DNA of 64,000 nt from an uncultured Pelagibacteraceae bacterium (GTDB taxonomy: Bacteria > Pseudomonadota > Alphaproteobacteria > Pelagibacterales > Pelagibacteraceae): contig CACFKI010000001.1 in NCBI GenBank assembly GCA_902566785.1, positions 1 through 64,000 of the forward strand. Reading direction: 5' to 3'. Below the pieces are notes generated by a model. It was not told the DNA's origin. It worked only from the letters and a program-made list of their open reading frames with translations, and did no database searches. Below are positions 1 through 9,013 of the stretch, one piece after another. Within the stretch, counting starts at the first letter, position 1, and every line of letters begins with the position of its first letter. The position numbers and the translations under genes are program-made.

Positions 1-777
1 AAGAATATTCTTGTAATTATTCTTAATTCCTAAATTAAAAAATTTAATCTTTTCATTAGTGCCTTTTTTATTAATAGCTTCGGGGAAACCTGAGGTATCT
101 TCCTCTTTTTTTAATTTATCAAAACTACAATTTTCAACACATTTTTTAGCTTTTGCTTTATCTATTAAGCTTGAGTCATTTCGTAAATTTTTAATGAATT
201 CTAAAATACTTATGAATGTTTCATATGTTTTTCTTTCTAGATCTTCATATTTTACTAAATAAACTGGAAAAGACTTTTGTTTTAACCAAGATTTATGATT
301 GAGACTCCAAGATAGTAAGGGTTGAAAACCAATATATCTGTTATTTATTTTAGAGACTATTCCTCTTTTTTCATCTTTCATAAATTGTAAAGCATCCTCT
401 TTGCTAATTTGATAATGATTAGCTAGAGATGTAATCACATTTCTTGGATCTCTTATTAAATAAACTGCCCCTAAAGTATTCTGTGAGTTTGTAAAAGTAT
501 AATTATTTATTTTACAAAATGCATTATGAGTTTTTAAAAATTTTACTTTTTTTGACTCATTAATTTTCTCTTGTTCTCTAATCCAATACTTTGCAGTATC
601 TTCAGGATTTTCAAATTTATCATCATAACTTTTAAAATTATTTTCGCTTGGAAATGAATTAATATTTTTTAACAAATTAAAGTTAAATGTTCCATCAACT
701 GAAAAGAAGTAATTACATAGCAAAGATCTAAGCCATGTATTTCCACTTTTAGGATATGATGCAATCCATATAATCAT
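1..777 (-). CDS. Sulfotransferase domain protein (partial, continues past left edge)
   Basis: Manual reverse translation from the ATG at 777 gives MIIWIASYPKSGNTWLRSLLCNYF..., with the PAPS-binding YPKSGNTWLR loop and a later VYLIRDPRNVITS motif. Not in the ORF list because it is open at the edge. Confidence 0.85.
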   Translation of the reverse strand, partial: MIIWIASYPKSGNTWLRSLLCNYFFSVDGTFNFNLLKNINSFPSENNFKSYDDKFENPEDTAKYWIREQEKINESKKVKFLKTHNAFCKINNYTFTNSQNTLGAVYLIRDPRNVITSLANHYQISKEDALQFMKDEKRGIVSKINNRYIGFQPLLSWSLNHKSWLKQKSFPVYLVKYEDLERKTYETFISILEFIKNLRNDSSLIDKAKAKKCVENCSFDKLKKEEDTSGFPEAINKKGTNEKIKFFNLGIKNNYKNIL

Positions 778-1820
778 GATAAATTAATTGCTGCTCCTAC
801 TGCAGGAACTTTTTTTATTGCTCCAAGATCTGAAATTAAATTGTCATATCTGCCACCATTTATTTCAATATTGTTTAATCTACTTTTAATATTAATCCTA
901 AAAACCATACCAGTATAATATTCAAGCTCTCTTCCAAATGAAGATGAAAACTTTATATTCAACTTTTGATATTTTTTTTTTGTAATAGGAAAATAATTTT
1001 TTTCTACTCTTAAATTAATTTTATTCTTTTTAAAAAAATTATTTAATTTAATTGCCGCTTTATCTATTGGACAATCTATATTTAAAAATTCTTTAATAAT
1101 TTTAGAAACATTTCGTCCCTTCTTAGTCCTTCTTGGATCCTTTATTTTATTATCAAACCTTTGAAGTATTTCTTCAACTGTCCTACCAGAAATCATTTTC
1201 GATTGATTTTCATTTAACATTTTTTTATATCTTTTCTTATCTATCTCTACAACTGTTGGGTCGACATCAGAATTTGTCTCTAATCTTTTTAACAAATCGT
1301 TAAAGTATTTTTCCCTCCAAAAATGTCTTTGAAGTCGTAACCTCCACCTTTTTGGAATATCAAGTTTGTTTAAAAGTAATTTAAATATTTCTACATTTCC
1401 AACAGTTAAACTTCCACTTTTGTAACCAAAATTTTTTATTGATTTTATTGAAGTCTCTAAAATATTTTGATCGTCTTTTTTTTCATTTTTTGAGCCTATG
1501 ATCTCAAAACCTATTTGATTTCTTATAATTGAATTTTTCTTATTAAATGTTTTCCTAAAAGCCTGCCCCTGATAATAAACTTTTTCTGTATCTGTAGTTT
1601 TTCTACTTAAATATCTAATACAAGATGCAATTGTCAAATCTGGTCTTAAACATAACTCTTTCCCCTTTTGATCATTAAAAGAAAATAAAAATCTTTTAAA
1701 AGTTTCGCCAGATCTTTCAATAATATGATTTGCCTCAATTACTGGAGGTAAATCAATATATTTAAATCCTTTAGATTTTATAGATCTAAGGATACTTTCA
1801 GATAATTTTTTTGATTTCAT
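774..1820 (-). CDS. hisZ: ATP phosphoribosyltransferase regulatory subunit HisZ (HisS-like paralog)
   Basis: 348 aa class II aaRS-like fold (LRPDLTIASCIRYL, GRELEYYTGMVFRI, GGRYDNLI); follows hisS. Confidence 0.85.
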   Translation of the reverse strand: MKSKKLSESILRSIKSKGFKYIDLPPVIEANHIIERSGETFKRFLFSFNDQKGKELCLRPDLTIASCIRYLSRKTTDTEKVYYQGQAFRKTFNKKNSIIRNQIGFEIIGSKNEKKDDQNILETSIKSIKNFGYKSGSLTVGNVEIFKLLLNKLDIPKRWRLRLQRHFWREKYFNDLLKRLETNSDVDPTVVEIDKKRYKKMLNENQSKMISGRTVEEILQRFDNKIKDPRRTKKGRNVSKIIKEFLNIDCPIDKAAIKLNNFFKKNKINLRVEKNYFPITKKKYQKLNIKFSSSFGRELEYYTGMVFRINIKSRLNNIEINGGRYDNLISDLGAIKKVPAVGAAINLS

Positions 1821-3192
1821 TTATTAAATTCTCTTTTGGAATTGTTTTGCTATTATCACCTTTTTCACCGAGAAGGTTTTTTACTGTTATTGTATTATCT
1901 TTAAATTCATTCTCCCCACAAATAATAGCAACTGGTAATCTTCTTTTATTTGCTTGGGTTAGTTGCTTTCCAAGATTTTTTTTACTATCTAAAAATATTT
2001 CAGAATTTATATTATTTTCTCTTAAAATATTAAGAATTTCATAATATTTTCTCAAATATTTTTTATCCATTACACAAACCATAACTGGCTTTTGTTGATC
2101 TATCTTAATCTGATCTAATTGCATCATCGCAAATAAAATTCGATCTACTCCAAAACTAATTCCAGTACCTGGTATATCTACTCCTTTAAATCTTGATATT
2201 AATTTTGCATAAGCTCCTCCTGAACAGATGCTACCTATATCTACTTCTTTACCTTTGACGTTGGTCACTTTGTAATTAAGATTAGTTTCAATTATAAATC
2301 CATCGTAATAATCTAAACCCCTAACTATTGTAAAGTTAGTTTTTACCAGCTCTTTGTAAGGTCCCATCTCAATTATTTCAAAAAAATCTTCTAATTCTTT
2401 TATTCCTTCTTTTGATAATGAGTTATTGAGATTATTTTTTAACTGTTTTAAATCCTTAATTTTTAGAAAGTTTAAGATTTTGATGACCTGCTCATCATTT
2501 AAATTAGCACCTTTGGTAACGGCACCACTAGAATCTTTTCTTTCTTTTCTTAATAAATCCTCTACGCCTCTAATTCCGAATCCAGGCTTATCAAGTTTAT
2601 CAATTGCTCTAATTACTTTTAATTGTTTGTCTTCTGTAATATTTAAATCATTAATAAGTCCCTGAACAATTTTTCTATTACTTACATTGATCGTAAATTG
2701 TGCTTTTTTTAATCCACAATTTAATAATGTGGTTGAAATTAAATCGCATAGTTCAGCATTTGCTTGTGCAGGATCTGTGTTTCCTATTATATCAAAATCA
2801 GCCTGAGTAAATTCCCTAAACCTTCCATTGCCAGGTTTTTCATTTCTAAACACATTTTGAATTGCATAACGTTTATAAATTGAAGGTAGTTCTTGGTTAT
2901 TTTGTGCAACAAATCTTGCTAGTGGACTAGATAAGTCATAGCGAAGTGTTATATTTTTTTCACCATCTTTGAATGTAAAAACATCTGACATAGGATTTTC
3001 TTGATCTTCACTTAAGAAAGATCCAATATTTTCACTTATTTCAAAAGAAGGTGTCTCAAGGGCTTCGGCTCCAAATTTTACAAAATTCTTTTCAATTATT
3101 TCTAAAAGCTTTTTTTTAAGTAAAATTTTATTGCCCCACCTATCCTCAAATCCTGAGGGTAAACCAGGTACTAGTTTTTTATCTTTATTCAT
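1798..3192 (-). CDS. hisS: Histidyl-tRNA synthetase
   Basis: VPGLPSGFEDRWGNK, motif 2 FRNEKPGNGRFREFTQADFDIIG, GLDYYDGFIIE. Start set at MNKDKKLVPG because the upstream part of the listed ORF overlaps the tRNA-His gene. Confidence 0.95.
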   Translation of the reverse strand: MNKDKKLVPGLPSGFEDRWGNKILLKKKLLEIIEKNFVKFGAEALETPSFEISENIGSFLSEDQENPMSDVFTFKDGEKNITLRYDLSSPLARFVAQNNQELPSIYKRYAIQNVFRNEKPGNGRFREFTQADFDIIGNTDPAQANAELCDLISTTLLNCGLKKAQFTINVSNRKIVQGLINDLNITEDKQLKVIRAIDKLDKPGFGIRGVEDLLRKERKDSSGAVTKGANLNDEQVIKILNFLKIKDLKQLKNNLNNSLSKEGIKELEDFFEIIEMGPYKELVKTNFTIVRGLDYYDGFIIETNLNYKVTNVKGKEVDIGSICSGGAYAKLISRFKGVDIPGTGISFGVDRILFAMMQLDQIKIDQQKPVMVCVMDKKYLRKYYEILNILRENNINSEIFLDSKKNLGKQLTQANKRRLPVAIICGENEFKDNTITVKNLLGEKGDNSKTIPKENLINEIKKII

Positions 3193-3196
3193 TTTT

Positions 3197-3271
3197 TGGT
3201 ACCCTGGCTTGGGATCGAACCAAAAACTAAAGTTCCACAAACTTTCGTGATAACCATTTCACCACCAGGGC
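3197..3271 (-). tRNA. tRNA-His(GTG), CCA encoded
   Basis: Cloverleaf folded by hand: acceptor GCCCTGG/CCAGGGT, D-stem GTGA/TCAC, anticodon stem AAAGT/ACTTT with loop TTGTGGA, T-arm TTCGATC, A73, CCA. Confidence 0.93.
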
Positions 3272-3326
3272 CTATGTTTATTTTATACTAATTGTTGTTA
3301 AATTAAAATTTTTAAATAATTAAATA

Positions 3327-3343
3327 GCTAGCGTGCAGCCAGC
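3327..3343 (-). other. GC-rich hairpin in the cspA/tRNA-His intergenic region
   Basis: Minus strand GCTGGC-TGCAC-GCTAGC; 6-bp stem with one G-U, 5-nt loop. Confidence 0.45.
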
Positions 3344-3437
3344 ATGAATATGATGTCTGTGTGTTTTTTTTGATGTATCAAATTTATTAATCATTGAGAG
3401 CTAAATAACATTTAATTAAATTATTGCAAGTAAGATC

Positions 3438-3484
3438 TGTATAGGAATTAATTAAGCCTAAAAAAGCTTAAAAATCCCTATACA
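3438..3484. other. Nested inverted repeat downstream of cspA
   Basis: Outer TGTATAGG...CCTATACA (8 bp) encloses inner TTAAGC-CTAAAAAA-GCTTAA (6 bp). Confidence 0.5.
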
Positions 3485-3500
3485 ATTATTTGAATTAGAA

Positions 3501-3710
3501 TTAAGAGGTTTTTTGCAGTTTTACTGCGGAAGGACCTTTTTCTCCGTCTTCAACTTCAAATGTAAGTTCGTCACCTTCGTTTAAATATCTTAAACCTGCT
3601 TCTCTTACAGCTGAAGCATGTACGAATACATCTTTTTCTTTATCTTCTCGTTCAATGAAACCATAACCTTTTTTTCCATTGAACCATTTTACTTTACCTT
3701 TTAGACTCAT
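3501..3710 (-). CDS. Cold-shock protein, CspA family
   Basis: 69 aa with [20 protein letters not shown] and DVFVHASAV, the RNP1/RNP2 cold-shock domain motifs. Confidence 0.96.
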
Positions 3711-3738
3711 TTTACTCTTTCTTTTATTGTTATTACTT

Positions 3739-3755
3739 AAGCTAAATATTAGCTT
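3739..3755 (-). promoter_or_regulatory. Perfect hairpin in the cspA 5' leader
   Basis: AAGCTAA-(3 nt)-TTAGCTT, 7-bp stem about 28 nt upstream of the cspA ATG. Confidence 0.4.
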
Positions 3756-3822
3756 GGTGACTTGTTATTAGATTTTAAAATTTATTGCAAGGTTATAATT
3801 GTTCAAAAGCTAGTAATTAAGG

Positions 3823-3895
3823 TGGGTCCCCCTGGAAACGAACCAGGTCCTAACGCTTTTCAGGCGTTCGTGCGCACCAGCTACACCAGAGACCC
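3823..3895 (-). tRNA. tRNA-Phe(GAA), CCA not fully encoded
   Basis: Acceptor GGGTCTC/GGGACCC, anticodon stem AACGC/GCGTT with loop CTGAAAA, T-arm CCTGG-TTCGTTT-CCAGG. Confidence 0.92.
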
Positions 3896-3901
3896 CATAA
3901 A

Positions 3902-4117
3902 TTAAAATCTAAATATAATTCTTCCCTTGGTTAAATCGTATGGTGTTACCTCAACAGTAACATTATCACCTTGCAAAACTCTTATGCGATTCTTTCTTAA
4001 CTTTCCTGCAGCATGTGCAGTTATAATATGATCATTTTCTAACTTAACTCGAAACATTGCATTTGGAAGAAGATCAATAATCTTTCCTTTAAATTCAAGT
4101 GTATCTTGTTTTGCCAA
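3902..4117 (-). CDS. infA: Translation initiation factor IF-1
   Basis: 71 aa; ...[55 protein letters not shown]. Confidence 0.97.
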
Positions 4118-4128
4118 ATTTAACCTCT

Positions 4129-5379
4129 TTACATTCTAGATTTAATACTTTGAGTATGAGCATATAAATTTTCATACTCAGACAGTTTTATAGCTGGATT
4201 CCCAATTTTTTCTACCCCTAATTTACTAAGAGTAACAATAGAAATTTTTTTAATAAATTCATTTATACTTAGGCCAGAACTAAATTTTGCACTTCCACTT
4301 GTTGGTAGAATATGATTAGTTCCTACTGTATAATCACTTAAACTCATTGGTGTGAATTTTCCATTACATATACTTCCAACATTATAAATTTTGTTAATAT
4401 ATTTTTTATAATTTTTAACATTAATCTCTAAATGTTCTGGTGCAATTAAATTAATAGTATCTACAATCTCTTTATCATTTTTTAATAATATCATTAATCC
4501 GTGGTTATTGAGTGATTGAGTAGCTATTTTTTTTCGAGGCAAAAGTTTAATTATTTTCTTAATTGTTAAATTAACTTTTGGTAATATAGTTTTATCTTTT
4601 GTTAATAAAATACATTGACTATTTGGATCGTGTTCTGCTTGAGAAACTAAAGATGTAGCAATTTGATTGATATTAGTAAATTTATCAGCAACAACACAAA
4701 TCTCTGAGGGCCCAGCAAACATTGACTCGGTTCCTACAATTTTTCCAGATATTTGTCTCTTCGCCTCAGCAACAAATTTATTTCCAGGGCCAACTATTTT
4801 GTCAACTTTTTGAATATAGGCTAAACTTGCGATTGCTTGTGCCCCACCCATGAAATAAATTTCTTTAATGCCTAATTTTTTTGCAGCGTACATAACTGCA
4901 GGATCAGGTTTGGGTGTTGCAAGAACTATTTTTTTTACATTTGAAACTTTAGCGGGAATTGCATTCATCAAGAGAGATGAAGGAAGATTGGCTGGCACAT
5001 ATATTCCAACTGATTGAATTGGAACTATATTATATTCAAGTTTATTTTTGTATTTGTCCTTATAAGAAATATTTTTCAAATTTTTTTTCTGAAGTATATG
5101 AAACTTATTTATTCTATCATATGCAAAATCTATGGATTTTTTAATTTGCATGTTAAGTCTTTTTATGGAATTACTGATTAGTTTTTTTGGTAAAGTAATT
5201 CTATTATTTTTACTAAATTTAACTTCATATTTTAGTAACGCTTTTTTTTTATCTTTTTTAATGTCGGTAATTATCTTTGATACTATTTTAGTATTTGAAT
5301 TGTCTAGTTTTCTTCTACGATTTAAAATGATTTCAAGTTTTTTATTAAAATTTGATTTTTTGCTATCAATTTTTATCAT
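4129..5379 (-). CDS. hisD: Histidinol dehydrogenase
   Basis: [67 protein letters not shown]. Confidence 0.95.
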
Positions 5380-5767
5380 TAATTTTCTGGTCCTCTAATG
5401 TAACTTCAATTATTTCTGCGGTAAGTGTTATAATTATATTATTCAAAAATAACAACGTTATTTCATAATTTCTATCTTTCTTGAAAAGATTTATCGAAAT
5501 TAATTCTAAAATTGTATCATTATTATTTTGATTGATATTCTTAGATTTTGAAGCGCTAATGTACTCAAATTTAAGAATACTTTTAACTTTTTGTTCTTCA
5601 TTAATAGACTCTTTATTAAATCGTTCTATCAATAATAGGAAAATCTTATTTTTTTTAAGAAATTTAATATTTCCAATTTTAATCTTAGATTCTGAACAAA
5701 TTGCAGATATAGTATTTAGGCCTAGTTGATCTTTTGCAATTATTTTTTTTAGAAACTTACTAACCAT
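5366..5767 (-). CDS. DUF2948-like protein (position between murA and hisD is typical of alphaproteobacteria)
   Basis: 133 aa, operonic overlap with hisD and murA; family call rests on gene order and weak similarity. Confidence 0.6.
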   Translation of the reverse strand: MVSKFLKKIIAKDQLGLNTISAICSESKIKIGNIKFLKKNKIFLLLIERFNKESINEEQKVKSILKFEYISASKSKNINQNNNDTILELISINLFKKDRNYEITLLFLNNIIITLTAEIIEVTLEDQKINDKN

Positions 5768-7029
5768 TAAGTTAATCTTTTAATTTTTACTCCTATTTGT
5801 TGTAATTTTTTTTCTATATTTTCATATCCTCTATCTAGATGGTAAATTCTATTAATTATTGATTTGCCACTCGAAACTATAGCTGCAAGAACGAGCGCTA
5901 CTGAAGCTCTTAAGTCACTAGACATCAATTCTGCTCCTACAAATTTAGTATTGCCCTCAATAATTGCTTTATTTTCTTTGATTAAAATTTTTGCTCCTAA
6001 TCTTCTAAGCTCTCCTACATGCATAAATCTATTCTCGAAAATACTTTCGGTTATTACACTTCTTCCTTTAGCTTTACACAATAAAACCATAAATTGGGCC
6101 TGTAAATCAGTTGGAAAATTAGGATATTCTTTAGTGGTAATACTGCTAATATTCTTAATATTTTTAGGTCCCATAATATGGATTTCATCTTTGGAAGTTT
6201 TAATTTTAGCACCAATTTTTTTTAAAATATTTATTTCGGTTTGAATAATTTTTGGATTAAAATTTTTTATCCTCAAATCTCCATTTGTAATTGTTGCAGC
6301 AACACAAAAAGTCCCTGTTTCAATTCTATCGCCCATAACTGAATATTCAGTTCCACTTAATGAGTCAACTCCAATTATTCTACAAGTTCTTTTACCAATC
6401 CATTTTATTTTTGCACCTCCAGATATAAGAAAATTTGTTAAGTCTTTAATTTCAGGTTCAATAGCGCAGTTTTTTAAAATAGTTTCCCCTTTTGCTAGGC
6501 ATGCCGCAATTATTGAGTTTTCAGTTGCTCCAACACTTATTTTTGGAAATTTAATTTTAGCACCTTTAAGTTTCCCTTTTGACTTTGCATGAATATAACC
6601 TTTTTTAATTTCGTATTTCATGCCTAATTTTTTAAGTGCATTTAAATGAAAGTTCACAGGTCTAGCCCCAATCAAACAACCTCCAGGTAGTGAGGTTATA
6701 GATTTATGATATTTTGAAATCATTGGTCCTAGCACTAAAATTCCAGCTCTCATTGTTTTTACTAAAGAATAAGAGGCAAGAAATTTTAATTTTTTGTTAT
6801 TTGAAATTCTTACAGTTCTTTTGTGTTTAAAAAGTTGAACCTTTAAACCTAATGATTTTAATAAATTGAGCATTGTGTCAATGTCTCTTACTCTGGGTAA
6901 ATTTTTTATAATTACTGGTCTATCAAAAAGAATTGTTGAAGCTAAAATGGGTAGAGCTGCGTTTTTGGATCCTTGAATATTGACTTGTCCTTCAATTCTG
7001 CAAGGACCATTAACCAAAAATTTATCCAT
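5767..7029 (-). CDS. murA: UDP-N-acetylglucosamine 1-carboxyvinyltransferase
   Basis: [15 protein letters not shown]-like start, [31 protein letters not shown]. Confidence 0.95.
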
Positions 7030-7588
7030 TTTTTTTTATTTTTGCTACCTGAATAGTTGTTTGCCCCTGATATTTTCCATTTTTGGATTTATACGTTGTC
7101 TCGGGTGGACTATCTGATTTAAAAAATAAAAATTGAGCAATTCCCTCATTTGAGTAAACTTTTGCAGGATTGGGTGTAGTATTTGATAACTCAATTACTA
7201 TGTTTCCTTCAAATTCATTTTCAATAGGAGTAACATTGCAAATAATACCTGTTCTAGCATAAGTACTTTTACCAACACATATGCATAAAACATCTTTTGG
7301 AATTCTAAAATACTCTATAGTTTTGGCTAGTACAAAAGAATTTGGTGGAATAATACAAAAAGGCCCTTTTCTCTCTATAAAATTATCTTCAGAGAAACTT
7401 TTTGGATCTACCAAAGAGGTATTCACATTTGTAAATATTCTATATTCATCAGAAATTCGAACATCATACCCCATGCTGCTTAAACCATATGAAATTTTAC
7501 CTTCTGATACTTGATGATCCAAAAAGGGATCAATCATATTGTGTTCCTTGCACATTTTTTTTATCCAAGTATCTGGTTGAATTGACAT
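7022..7588 (-). CDS. dcd: dCTP deaminase
   Basis: 188 aa; [51 protein letters not shown]. Confidence 0.95.
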
Positions 7589-7590
7589 AT

Positions 7591-7695
7591 TTATTTATTA
7601 TTTTTTTTTTGTTTTTTTTGAAAAACTTTTCTTTTTTTTAAGTTTTTACGCATAGCATTTTCCAACTTACTTAATTTATCCTTTTTACTTTTCAT
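7591..7695 (-). CDS. Very basic 34-aa small protein (hypothetical)
   Basis: Manual translation [34 protein letters not shown]; fills the gap between dcd and the next small ORF. Confidence 0.4.
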
Positions 7696-7700
7696 AATAT

Positions 7701-7901
7701 TTATTTTTTATCAGGATTTGTAAGATGGTCTAATGTTATAACTTGATCTAATGGAATTGTTTTGTCCTGCTCTTTTTCTTTTGGGTTTCCAGACTTTGCT
7801 TGTTTCTTGGCTCTTTTTTCTGCAAGTTTTTTTTCGCGCTTAGCCTGTTTTTCCATAGCCTTGGCTCCACGTGTGCTTTTATAATCGTAGTGAATTCCCA
7901 T
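7701..7901 (-). CDS. Small basic hypothetical protein
   Basis: 66 aa, MGIHYDYKSTRGAKAMEKQAKREKKLAEKRAKKQAK...; co-directional with dcd. Confidence 0.6.
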   Translation of the reverse strand: MGIHYDYKSTRGAKAMEKQAKREKKLAEKRAKKQAKSGNPKEKEQDKTIPLDQVITLDHLTNPDKK

Positions 7902-7993
7902 ATCATTTCCTTTATTAGATATAACCTATTTTTAGAAAAAAAAAATGGCAATAATTTGAAAAATTATAATTTATACACTAAATTTGTTTTTTT

Positions 7994-8067
7994 GCCCCTA
8001 TAGTTAAATGGCATAACGTGACCATGGTAAGGTTAAGTTTCAAGTTCGATTCTTGGTGGGGGCACCA
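7994..8067 (+). tRNA. tRNA-Thr(GGT), CCA encoded
   Basis: Acceptor GCCCCTA/TGGGGGC, D-stem GTTA/TAAC, anticodon loop ATGGTAA, T-arm TTCGATT, ACCA. Confidence 0.85.
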
Positions 8068-8075
8068 TTCTCTGC

Positions 8076-8795
8076 TTAATTAGTAGCGAAAAATTTTTTA
8101 ACTATAAAACCAATAAATATTAAAATACCAAAACCAATAATAGGTAAATATATTTCTTTTGTCATTATTAAATCAATGAAGTTAGGGAATTCCAAATTAT
8201 CATCAATTATTTTTTCTAATCCACTTCCAAGAGAAACCCATACAAATACCTGTGGAAACATTCCTATTAAGCTACCAAAAAAATAATTTCTAAATTTAAT
8301 ATTAAATAAAACTGGCAAAATATTTGAGATTTGAAAAGGAATACCACCAACAAATCTATAAATTAGAAAAAAAAGAAATTCATTCTTTTTAACTTTAGAG
8401 CTTAAATTTGAAAATTTTTTACTAAATTTCTCTTCTATCCAGTCCTTCACAAAATAATTTGCGAAAAAATATAATAATGTTGCACCAACAGTTAATCCAG
8501 TAACCGCAATCAAAGAACCTATCCAACTACCAAATATAAAACCTGAGGTTAATACAATTGGTATTCCAAAACCAAGCATTAGTACCCAAATAATAGTAAA
8601 TATAAAAAAAAATGTAGTTAATAAAATAAAGTTTTGTTCTTTTAAAAACGCAAGATTGTTTCTATTATTTTTTATAAAATCATAACTTGTAATTTCTTGC
8701 AAAGTGAAATGACTAAAAAATACCCACAAAAATATTGATAAAATTGAAATATAAAAAATACTTAAAAATAATTTAATTTTTATATCTTTTTTCAT
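8076..8795 (-). CDS. TVP38/TMEM64-type (VTT domain) membrane protein
   Basis: 239 aa multi-TM; GFGIPIVLTSGFIFGSWIGSLIAVTGLTVGATLLYFFANYF and FRYVGGIPFQISN-like core. Confidence 0.8.
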   Translation of the reverse strand: MKKDIKIKLFLSIFYISILSIFLWVFFSHFTLQEITSYDFIKNNRNNLAFLKEQNFILLTTFFFIFTIIWVLMLGFGIPIVLTSGFIFGSWIGSLIAVTGLTVGATLLYFFANYFVKDWIEEKFSKKFSNLSSKVKKNEFLFFLIYRFVGGIPFQISNILPVLFNIKFRNYFFGSLIGMFPQVFVWVSLGSGLEKIIDDNLEFPNFIDLIMTKEIYLPIIGFGILIFIGFIVKKFFATN

Positions 8796-8878
8796 AAATA
8801 ATACTTAAAATTAGCTGTACTTTATTATACTTATTTCTTATAACTACCGAAATTTTAGTAGTATTTTATTAACATATT

Positions 8879-9013
8879 ATGAAAAGAACATATCAACCGA
8901 GCAGATTAGTAAGAAAAAGACGTCATGGTTTCAGATCTAAAATGAAATCTAAAGGTGGCAGAAAATTATTAGCTAGAAGAAGATCAAAAGGTAGAAAAAA
9001 ATTAACAGTTTAA
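8879..9013 (+). CDS. rpmH: 50S ribosomal protein L34
   Basis: Manual translation [44 protein letters not shown]; too short for the ORF list. Confidence 0.97.

Follow-up and report, generated by a model that had tools for sequence, protein, structure and literature searches.

The window, a 64,000-nucleotide stretch of DNA, originates from a SAR11 bacterium (Pelagibacteraceae), and within the species-level genome collection every one of its relatives belongs to Pelagibacteraceae. Its own assembly comprises 0.94 Mb in 58 contigs and is 78% complete. On the minus strand, genes occur in the order hisD, infA, tRNA-Phe, a cold-shock protein gene (csp), tRNA-His, hisS, and hisZ. The features at and around the junction of tRNA-His and hisS are as follows:

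774..1820, minus strand: hisZ, ATP phosphoribosyltransferase regulatory subunit (open reading frame; NF008953, 368 bits, and TIGR00443)
1798..3192, minus strand: hisS, histidyl-tRNA synthetase (HisRS), 464 amino acids, ATG start (TIGR00442, 339 bits, cut-off 286.75)
3193..3196, minus strand: four-nucleotide linker AAAA from CCA to the hisS ATG (sequence)
3197..3271, minus strand: tRNA-His (GTG) (ARAGORN; Rfam RF00005, 58.6 bits; encoded CCA, A73, G1-U72, canonical D- and T-loops)
3202..3205, minus strand: AGGG, Shine-Dalgarno (SD)-like tetramer in the 3' acceptor strand, 9 nt 5' of the ATG (sequence; anti-SD duplex of -5.2 kcal/mol)
3282..3287, minus strand: TATAAA, probable -10 element of the tRNA-His promoter (conservation among relatives)
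3327..3343, minus strand: terminator-like hairpin in the interval between csp and tRNA-His (pattern scan, one found vs 0.2 expected)

The minus-strand letters across the junction read ...CCAAG-CCAGGGT-A-CCA-AAAA-ATGAATAAAGAT. The initial annotation had described exactly this order, i.e., tRNA-His, AAAA, and the hisS ATG, with AGGG 9 nt before the start codon, and the sequence, ARAGORN, and Rfam all agree with it. Its interval for the junction ran to 3272; the gene does adjoin hisS at four nucleotides, but its 5' end lies at 3271. Position -1, a G at 3272, is g, t, or a in relatives, in keeping with a tRNA-His of the alphaproteobacterial A73 type, which lacks G-1. Downstream, hisZ overlaps the end of hisS by 23 nt, and the NF008953 match of hisZ falls just under the cut-off of 384.

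The tRNA-His is of the A73 type: it combines A73 and G1-U72 with no conserved G-1, and the motif-2 loop of the HisRS (RNEKPGNGRFREF) carries Gly at the position of the E. coli Gln. This Gly is the state of alphaproteobacterial A73-type HisRS (PMC3937112). The gene evolves fast in this clade, with two-sided (compensatory) changes in 17 of its 21 stem pairs among 11 distinct relatives. It is present as a single copy in the available assembly of the window (78% complete), and no second tRNA-His was found in this assembly, in the closed genome of a relative (G010), or in seven other relatives, most of these genomes being incomplete. Judged from stems kept by compensatory changes, and with no second copy found, the tRNA-His is functional.

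Linkage and spacing of tRNA-His and hisS among relatives

We compared the junction across the family. A tRNA-His gene precedes hisS in 80 of 80 other family species, at a gap of 4 nt in 76 and 5 nt in four (two of these tRNA genes were missed by ARAGORN but are visible in the sequence), and the claim that the four-nucleotide spacing is conserved in close relatives is thereby upheld. Among 40 further stretches, the gap was 4 nt in 35, 5 nt in four, and 23 nt in one. In a divergence set of 30 genomes, covering seven genera of Pelagibacteraceae and a sister family, the gap was mostly 3-6 nt across very different tRNA-His sequences. Variable spacing, named by the initial annotation as evidence against its model, was not seen in close relatives but does occur farther away: seven divergent lineages have gaps of 23, 27, 28, 29, 29, 31, and about 47 nt, the last value depending on the hisS start codon chosen. 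No tRNA-His lies upstream of hisS in the three loci read from the sister (outgroup) family. As far as these genomes indicate, the linkage is a trait of this family, in which short spacing is the usual but not the sole state.

Several of the divergent loci are unusual in other respects. The linkers of 23-31 nt in L144, L149, L150, L153, L156, and L170 contain apparent small hairpins by eye; one carries TTGGAGG and one AGGA in the loop region. The tRNA-His at L147:1415-1490, unlike that of all relatives, has no encoded CCA directly after A73 and ends ACGCCCAAA before the ATG. In L154/L192 (G109:C2:150463-150536), hisS is preceded at about 47 nt by a very divergent tRNA-His-like gene with G73 and the T-loop AGAGTTA, whose D-loop lacks GG.

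Close packing of tRNA genes against open reading frames is not confined to this junction. In G010, eight of 32 tRNAs, tRNA-His included, end no more than 11 nt before an open reading frame; the seven others lie 2-11 nt away, and the tRNA-then-ATG arrangement recurs for tRNA-Leu, Gln, Pro, Glu, and Thr. Examples at G010:C1:139117-139201, 764510-764595, 1061694-1061767, and 535520-535604 stand 3-10 nt before frames that, by sequence, appear to encode an acyl-CoA synthetase, NAD kinase, tRNA nucleotidyltransferase, and trigger factor. Such packing is, to judge from these gene maps, a general trait of these compact genomes. The pair could accordingly be a pure accident of streamlining, in which independent genes drifted together for want of intergenic space and their pairing has no functional meaning; both the frequency of tight pairs in G010 and the toleration of 23-47-nt linkers in some lineages are consistent with this. 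However, the linkage and the 3-6-nt spacing persist across seven genera despite strong divergence of tRNA and HisRS, and the gap is too small for a separate hisS promoter. We therefore regard an accident as rather unlikely. On present comparisons, tRNA-His differs from the other packed tRNAs in standing next to its cognate synthetase and in keeping that partner throughout the family, which may reflect regulation, shared dosage, or history.

Window positions 774-5379 (infA-tRNA-Phe-csp-tRNA-His-hisS-hisZ) form a mosaic among relatives, with identity to the window changing independently from gene to gene. In L152, for example, identity to the window is 97% for the cold-shock protein, 56% for HisRS, and 48% for HisZ. 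Distances of HisRS correlate with those of HisZ (r 0.76) and weakly with those of tRNA-His (r 0.32), and HisRS proteins that are only 50-59% identical can have near-identical tRNA-His genes next to them. The low correlation and several discordant pairs led us to reject strict co-inheritance of the tRNA and HisRS types. The pattern fits repeated recombination at the locus, apparently with breakpoints also between the tRNA and hisS.

Shine-Dalgarno matches at the hisS start

The initial annotation had identified AGGG as the only SD-like motif before hisS, and in the window this is correct: the sequence contains no SD outside the tRNA. We assessed its significance with genome-wide counts from G010 (1,199,990 bases) rather than from the window's own assembly, using 835 genes with an unambiguous ATG whose starts were taken from long open reading frames and not from a trained gene finder. 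The 3' end of the G010 16S rRNA has a normal anti-SD (GGATTACCTCCTTT). A duplex of -4 kcal/mol or stronger within 20 nt upstream was found for 19% of these genes, vs 13% for shuffled sequence. SD-like matches are thus only slightly above chance genome-wide; most genes do without an SD, and hisS does not stand out in this respect.

A point in favor of the AGGG is its duplex, which at -5.2 kcal/mol is stronger than or equal to that of 88% of genes in a relative. This value arises largely because tRNA-His itself keeps G71, U72, and A73. Several lineages with the same architecture have no SD-like match: in canonical-type relatives with acceptor ends CCCGTGTACCA or CTGCTGTACCA, and with acceptor ends CCCGTGT or CTGCTGT, the duplex is only -0.4 to -0.5 kcal/mol, while the four-nucleotide gap and the ATG are unchanged. 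An SD 5-10 nt from the ATG is present in the window and lost elsewhere in the same architecture, and what persists, while the acceptor sequence varies widely, is the short A-rich gap and the ATG. We rejected an acceptor-stem SD as a conserved start signal on the basis of those lineages.

These observations also bear on the proposal that hisS is translated only from an unfolded or unprocessed transcript via the acceptor-stem AGGG, with tRNA folding excluding initiation. The position of the motif 9 nt before the ATG and its duplex strength would suit such a switch. It draws its match, however, from invariant nucleotides of tRNA-His, lineages without the match retain the gap and start codon, and the genome-wide SD excess is small. 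We consider this switch extremely unlikely. The AGGG did not hold up as a working SD site, being unconserved in genomes where SDs are barely enriched, and for the same two reasons folding of the tRNA and SD-led initiation do not form a conserved switch. A good SD (TTGGAGG) does occur in the long linker of L156/L180, where, by its sequence, an SD-led hisS start can also be used.

A putative operon headed by tRNA-His

On balance, we think it probable that the locus forms one short operon, i.e., promoter, tRNA-His, hisS, and hisZ, from which the tRNA is excised to leave a near-leaderless hisS mRNA with an SD-independent start. The three genes would be read together from a promoter just 5' of tRNA-His: TAGTATAAAA or AATATAAAA occurs about 9-20 nt 5' of the tRNA in almost every one of 31 distinct lineages. 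A generic sigma-70 scan made no call at TATAAA on this strand, and the element is a probable promoter by virtue of its conservation, in AT-rich DNA. The hairpin at 3327..3343 points to a start of tRNA-His-hisS transcription independent of csp. The tRNA and the open reading frame lie on the same strand, four nucleotides apart, with no intervening terminator. Given this gap, the only place for a separate hisS promoter would be within the tRNA gene; such an internal promoter, or initiation of hisS from a codon further downstream, is possible. Our literature searches found no transcription-start map of SAR11 for this locus.

In the operon as proposed, the tRNA, which heads the transcript, would be matured by RNase P at G1 and then by an endonuclease right after CCA. 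The latter is most likely RNase E, cutting in the A-rich linker, because RNase E/G was over cut-off in five of five near-complete genomes in a profile search and RNase Z (TIGR02651) was under cut-off in six of six genomes searched. The product would be a hisS-hisZ mRNA whose AUG lies no more than about 4 nt from its 5' end. The four-nucleotide leader envisaged by the initial annotation is in this sense a reasonable reading of the gap, with a 5' end that we infer. Translation of hisS would then be SD-independent and near-leaderless, on an A-rich unstructured start, and there is indeed no SD outside the tRNA and only a few nucleotides between the predicted 5' end and the start codon. The close packing would stem from genome streamlining, and cognate pairing would place the supply of tRNA-His and HisRS on one promoter and allow joint inheritance or recombination of the pair. 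Against the excised-tRNA operon stand the seven lineages with 23-47-nt linkers, one of which has a good SD.

The arrangement has counterparts elsewhere. As in the tRNA punctuation of mitochondria, excision from a compact transcript would put the mRNA 5' end at or beside the start codon and lead to leaderless initiation; unlike in mitochondria, processing, which we infer here, would fall to the bacterial RNase P and RNase E/G of a free-living host, and a single tRNA with its own promoter heads an operon with the cognate synthetase downstream. Bacterial tRNA-mRNA co-transcripts include E. coli thrU-tyrU-glyT-thrT-tufB and secG-leuU, in which a tRNA and a protein gene likewise share one transcript and are parted by tRNA processing. 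The tufB gene has a normal leader with an SD in between, whereas the SAR11 locus has a 4-nt gap, no SD outside the tRNA, and a tRNA cognate to the synthetase. Leaderless and near-leaderless bacterial mRNAs have been reviewed (PMC9031893). They share with the predicted hisS mRNA an AUG at or very near the 5' end and no SD; most known examples arise at the transcription start, whereas the hisS end would arise by tRNA excision. The conserved arrangement is best seen, from its gene layout, as tRNA punctuation heading a synthetase operon, i.e., a variant of a known arrangement.

Synthetase genes can also be controlled by tRNA-like leaders, as for E. coli thrS and the T-box, and E. coli ThrRS binds the tRNA-like leader of thrS. 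In SAR11, too, a synthetase gene has a tRNA-like RNA as its leader. It differs in being no mimic but the true and sole tRNA-His gene, and a regulatory role for it is hypothetical. With ThrRS as precedent, free HisRS might bind the tRNA-His part of its own transcript and delay cleavage or block the start codon, so that HisRS level or tRNA charging would tune hisS expression. The cognate pairing is kept in seven genera, and among the roughly eight tight tRNA-ORF pairs of one genome a chance cognate pair would be unlikely (by our reckoning, roughly 8 in 1300). However, judging from sequence, the protein partners in the other tight pairs (NAD kinase, trigger factor, tRNA nucleotidyltransferase, and others) are not cognate to their tRNAs, and the leader has no additional conserved structure beyond the tRNA and linker and no conserved alternative fold. 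This feedback seems to us quite improbable. The more specific idea that maturation of the sole tRNA-His gates hisS translation, with HisRS on its own transcript controlling release of the near-leaderless mRNA, is very improbable; if true, one RNA would balance the supply of tRNA and synthetase, with a genuine tRNA as the regulatory leader.

Other leader structures received no support. Rfam searches of window positions 1-9000 (E up to 0.1) returned tRNA matches only and no T-box riboswitch or other known leader. A hairpin of the tRNA 3' strand with hisS codons, present in the minimum-energy fold, was rejected as a conserved attenuator, as own pairs were no better than cross pairs (permutation p 0.81). 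For this AT-rich tRNA-His-hisS RNA, the minimum-energy fold differs from the cloverleaf, so that arguments from folding are of limited force.

If processing occurs as proposed, a very abundant group of free-living bacteria makes the mRNA 5' end of an essential synthetase by tRNA excision, as animal mitochondria do, and ties the supply of a tRNA to that of its synthetase through a single promoter. The four G010 tRNAs with gaps of 3-10 nt given above are candidates for this kind of 5' end, and with this packing mRNA ends made by tRNAs could be general in SAR11. The tRNA-His-hisS junction would provide a clean, testable case of SD-independent initiation.

An exchange at the tRNA elbow

A side finding may be more surprising than the tRNA-His-hisS arrangement. 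Position 55 has been described as universally conserved U (PMC4810234). Over 35 distinct tRNA-His sequences, 20 combine GG in the D-loop with U55, 14 combine AG with G55, and one has neither. By this perfect covariation, the near-universal tertiary G18-U55 pair of the elbow is swapped for A18-G55 in many SAR11 tRNA-His genes. A literature search returned no report of this exchange, which is not proof that it is unreported. The window's own tRNA-His is canonical and does not carry it.

Carriers of A18-G55 include L025:1422-1496, L060:1422-1496, L057:1423-1496, L212 (G010:C1:205065-205138), and L267-L303. In G010, the A18-G55 gene is the only tRNA-His found, and ARAGORN gives 31 other tRNAs, none of them for His. 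We rejected the idea that the odd tRNA-His of some relatives is a decoy for a true gene elsewhere, as neither G010 nor seven other relatives nor the window's assembly, mostly incomplete genomes, showed a second copy. The same exchange occurs in two further tRNAs on C1 of this genome, tRNA-Phe(GAA) at 204435-204509 and tRNA-Val(GAC) at 1027217-1027291, which have AG D-loops and the T-loops TGCGAAT and AGCGTAA.
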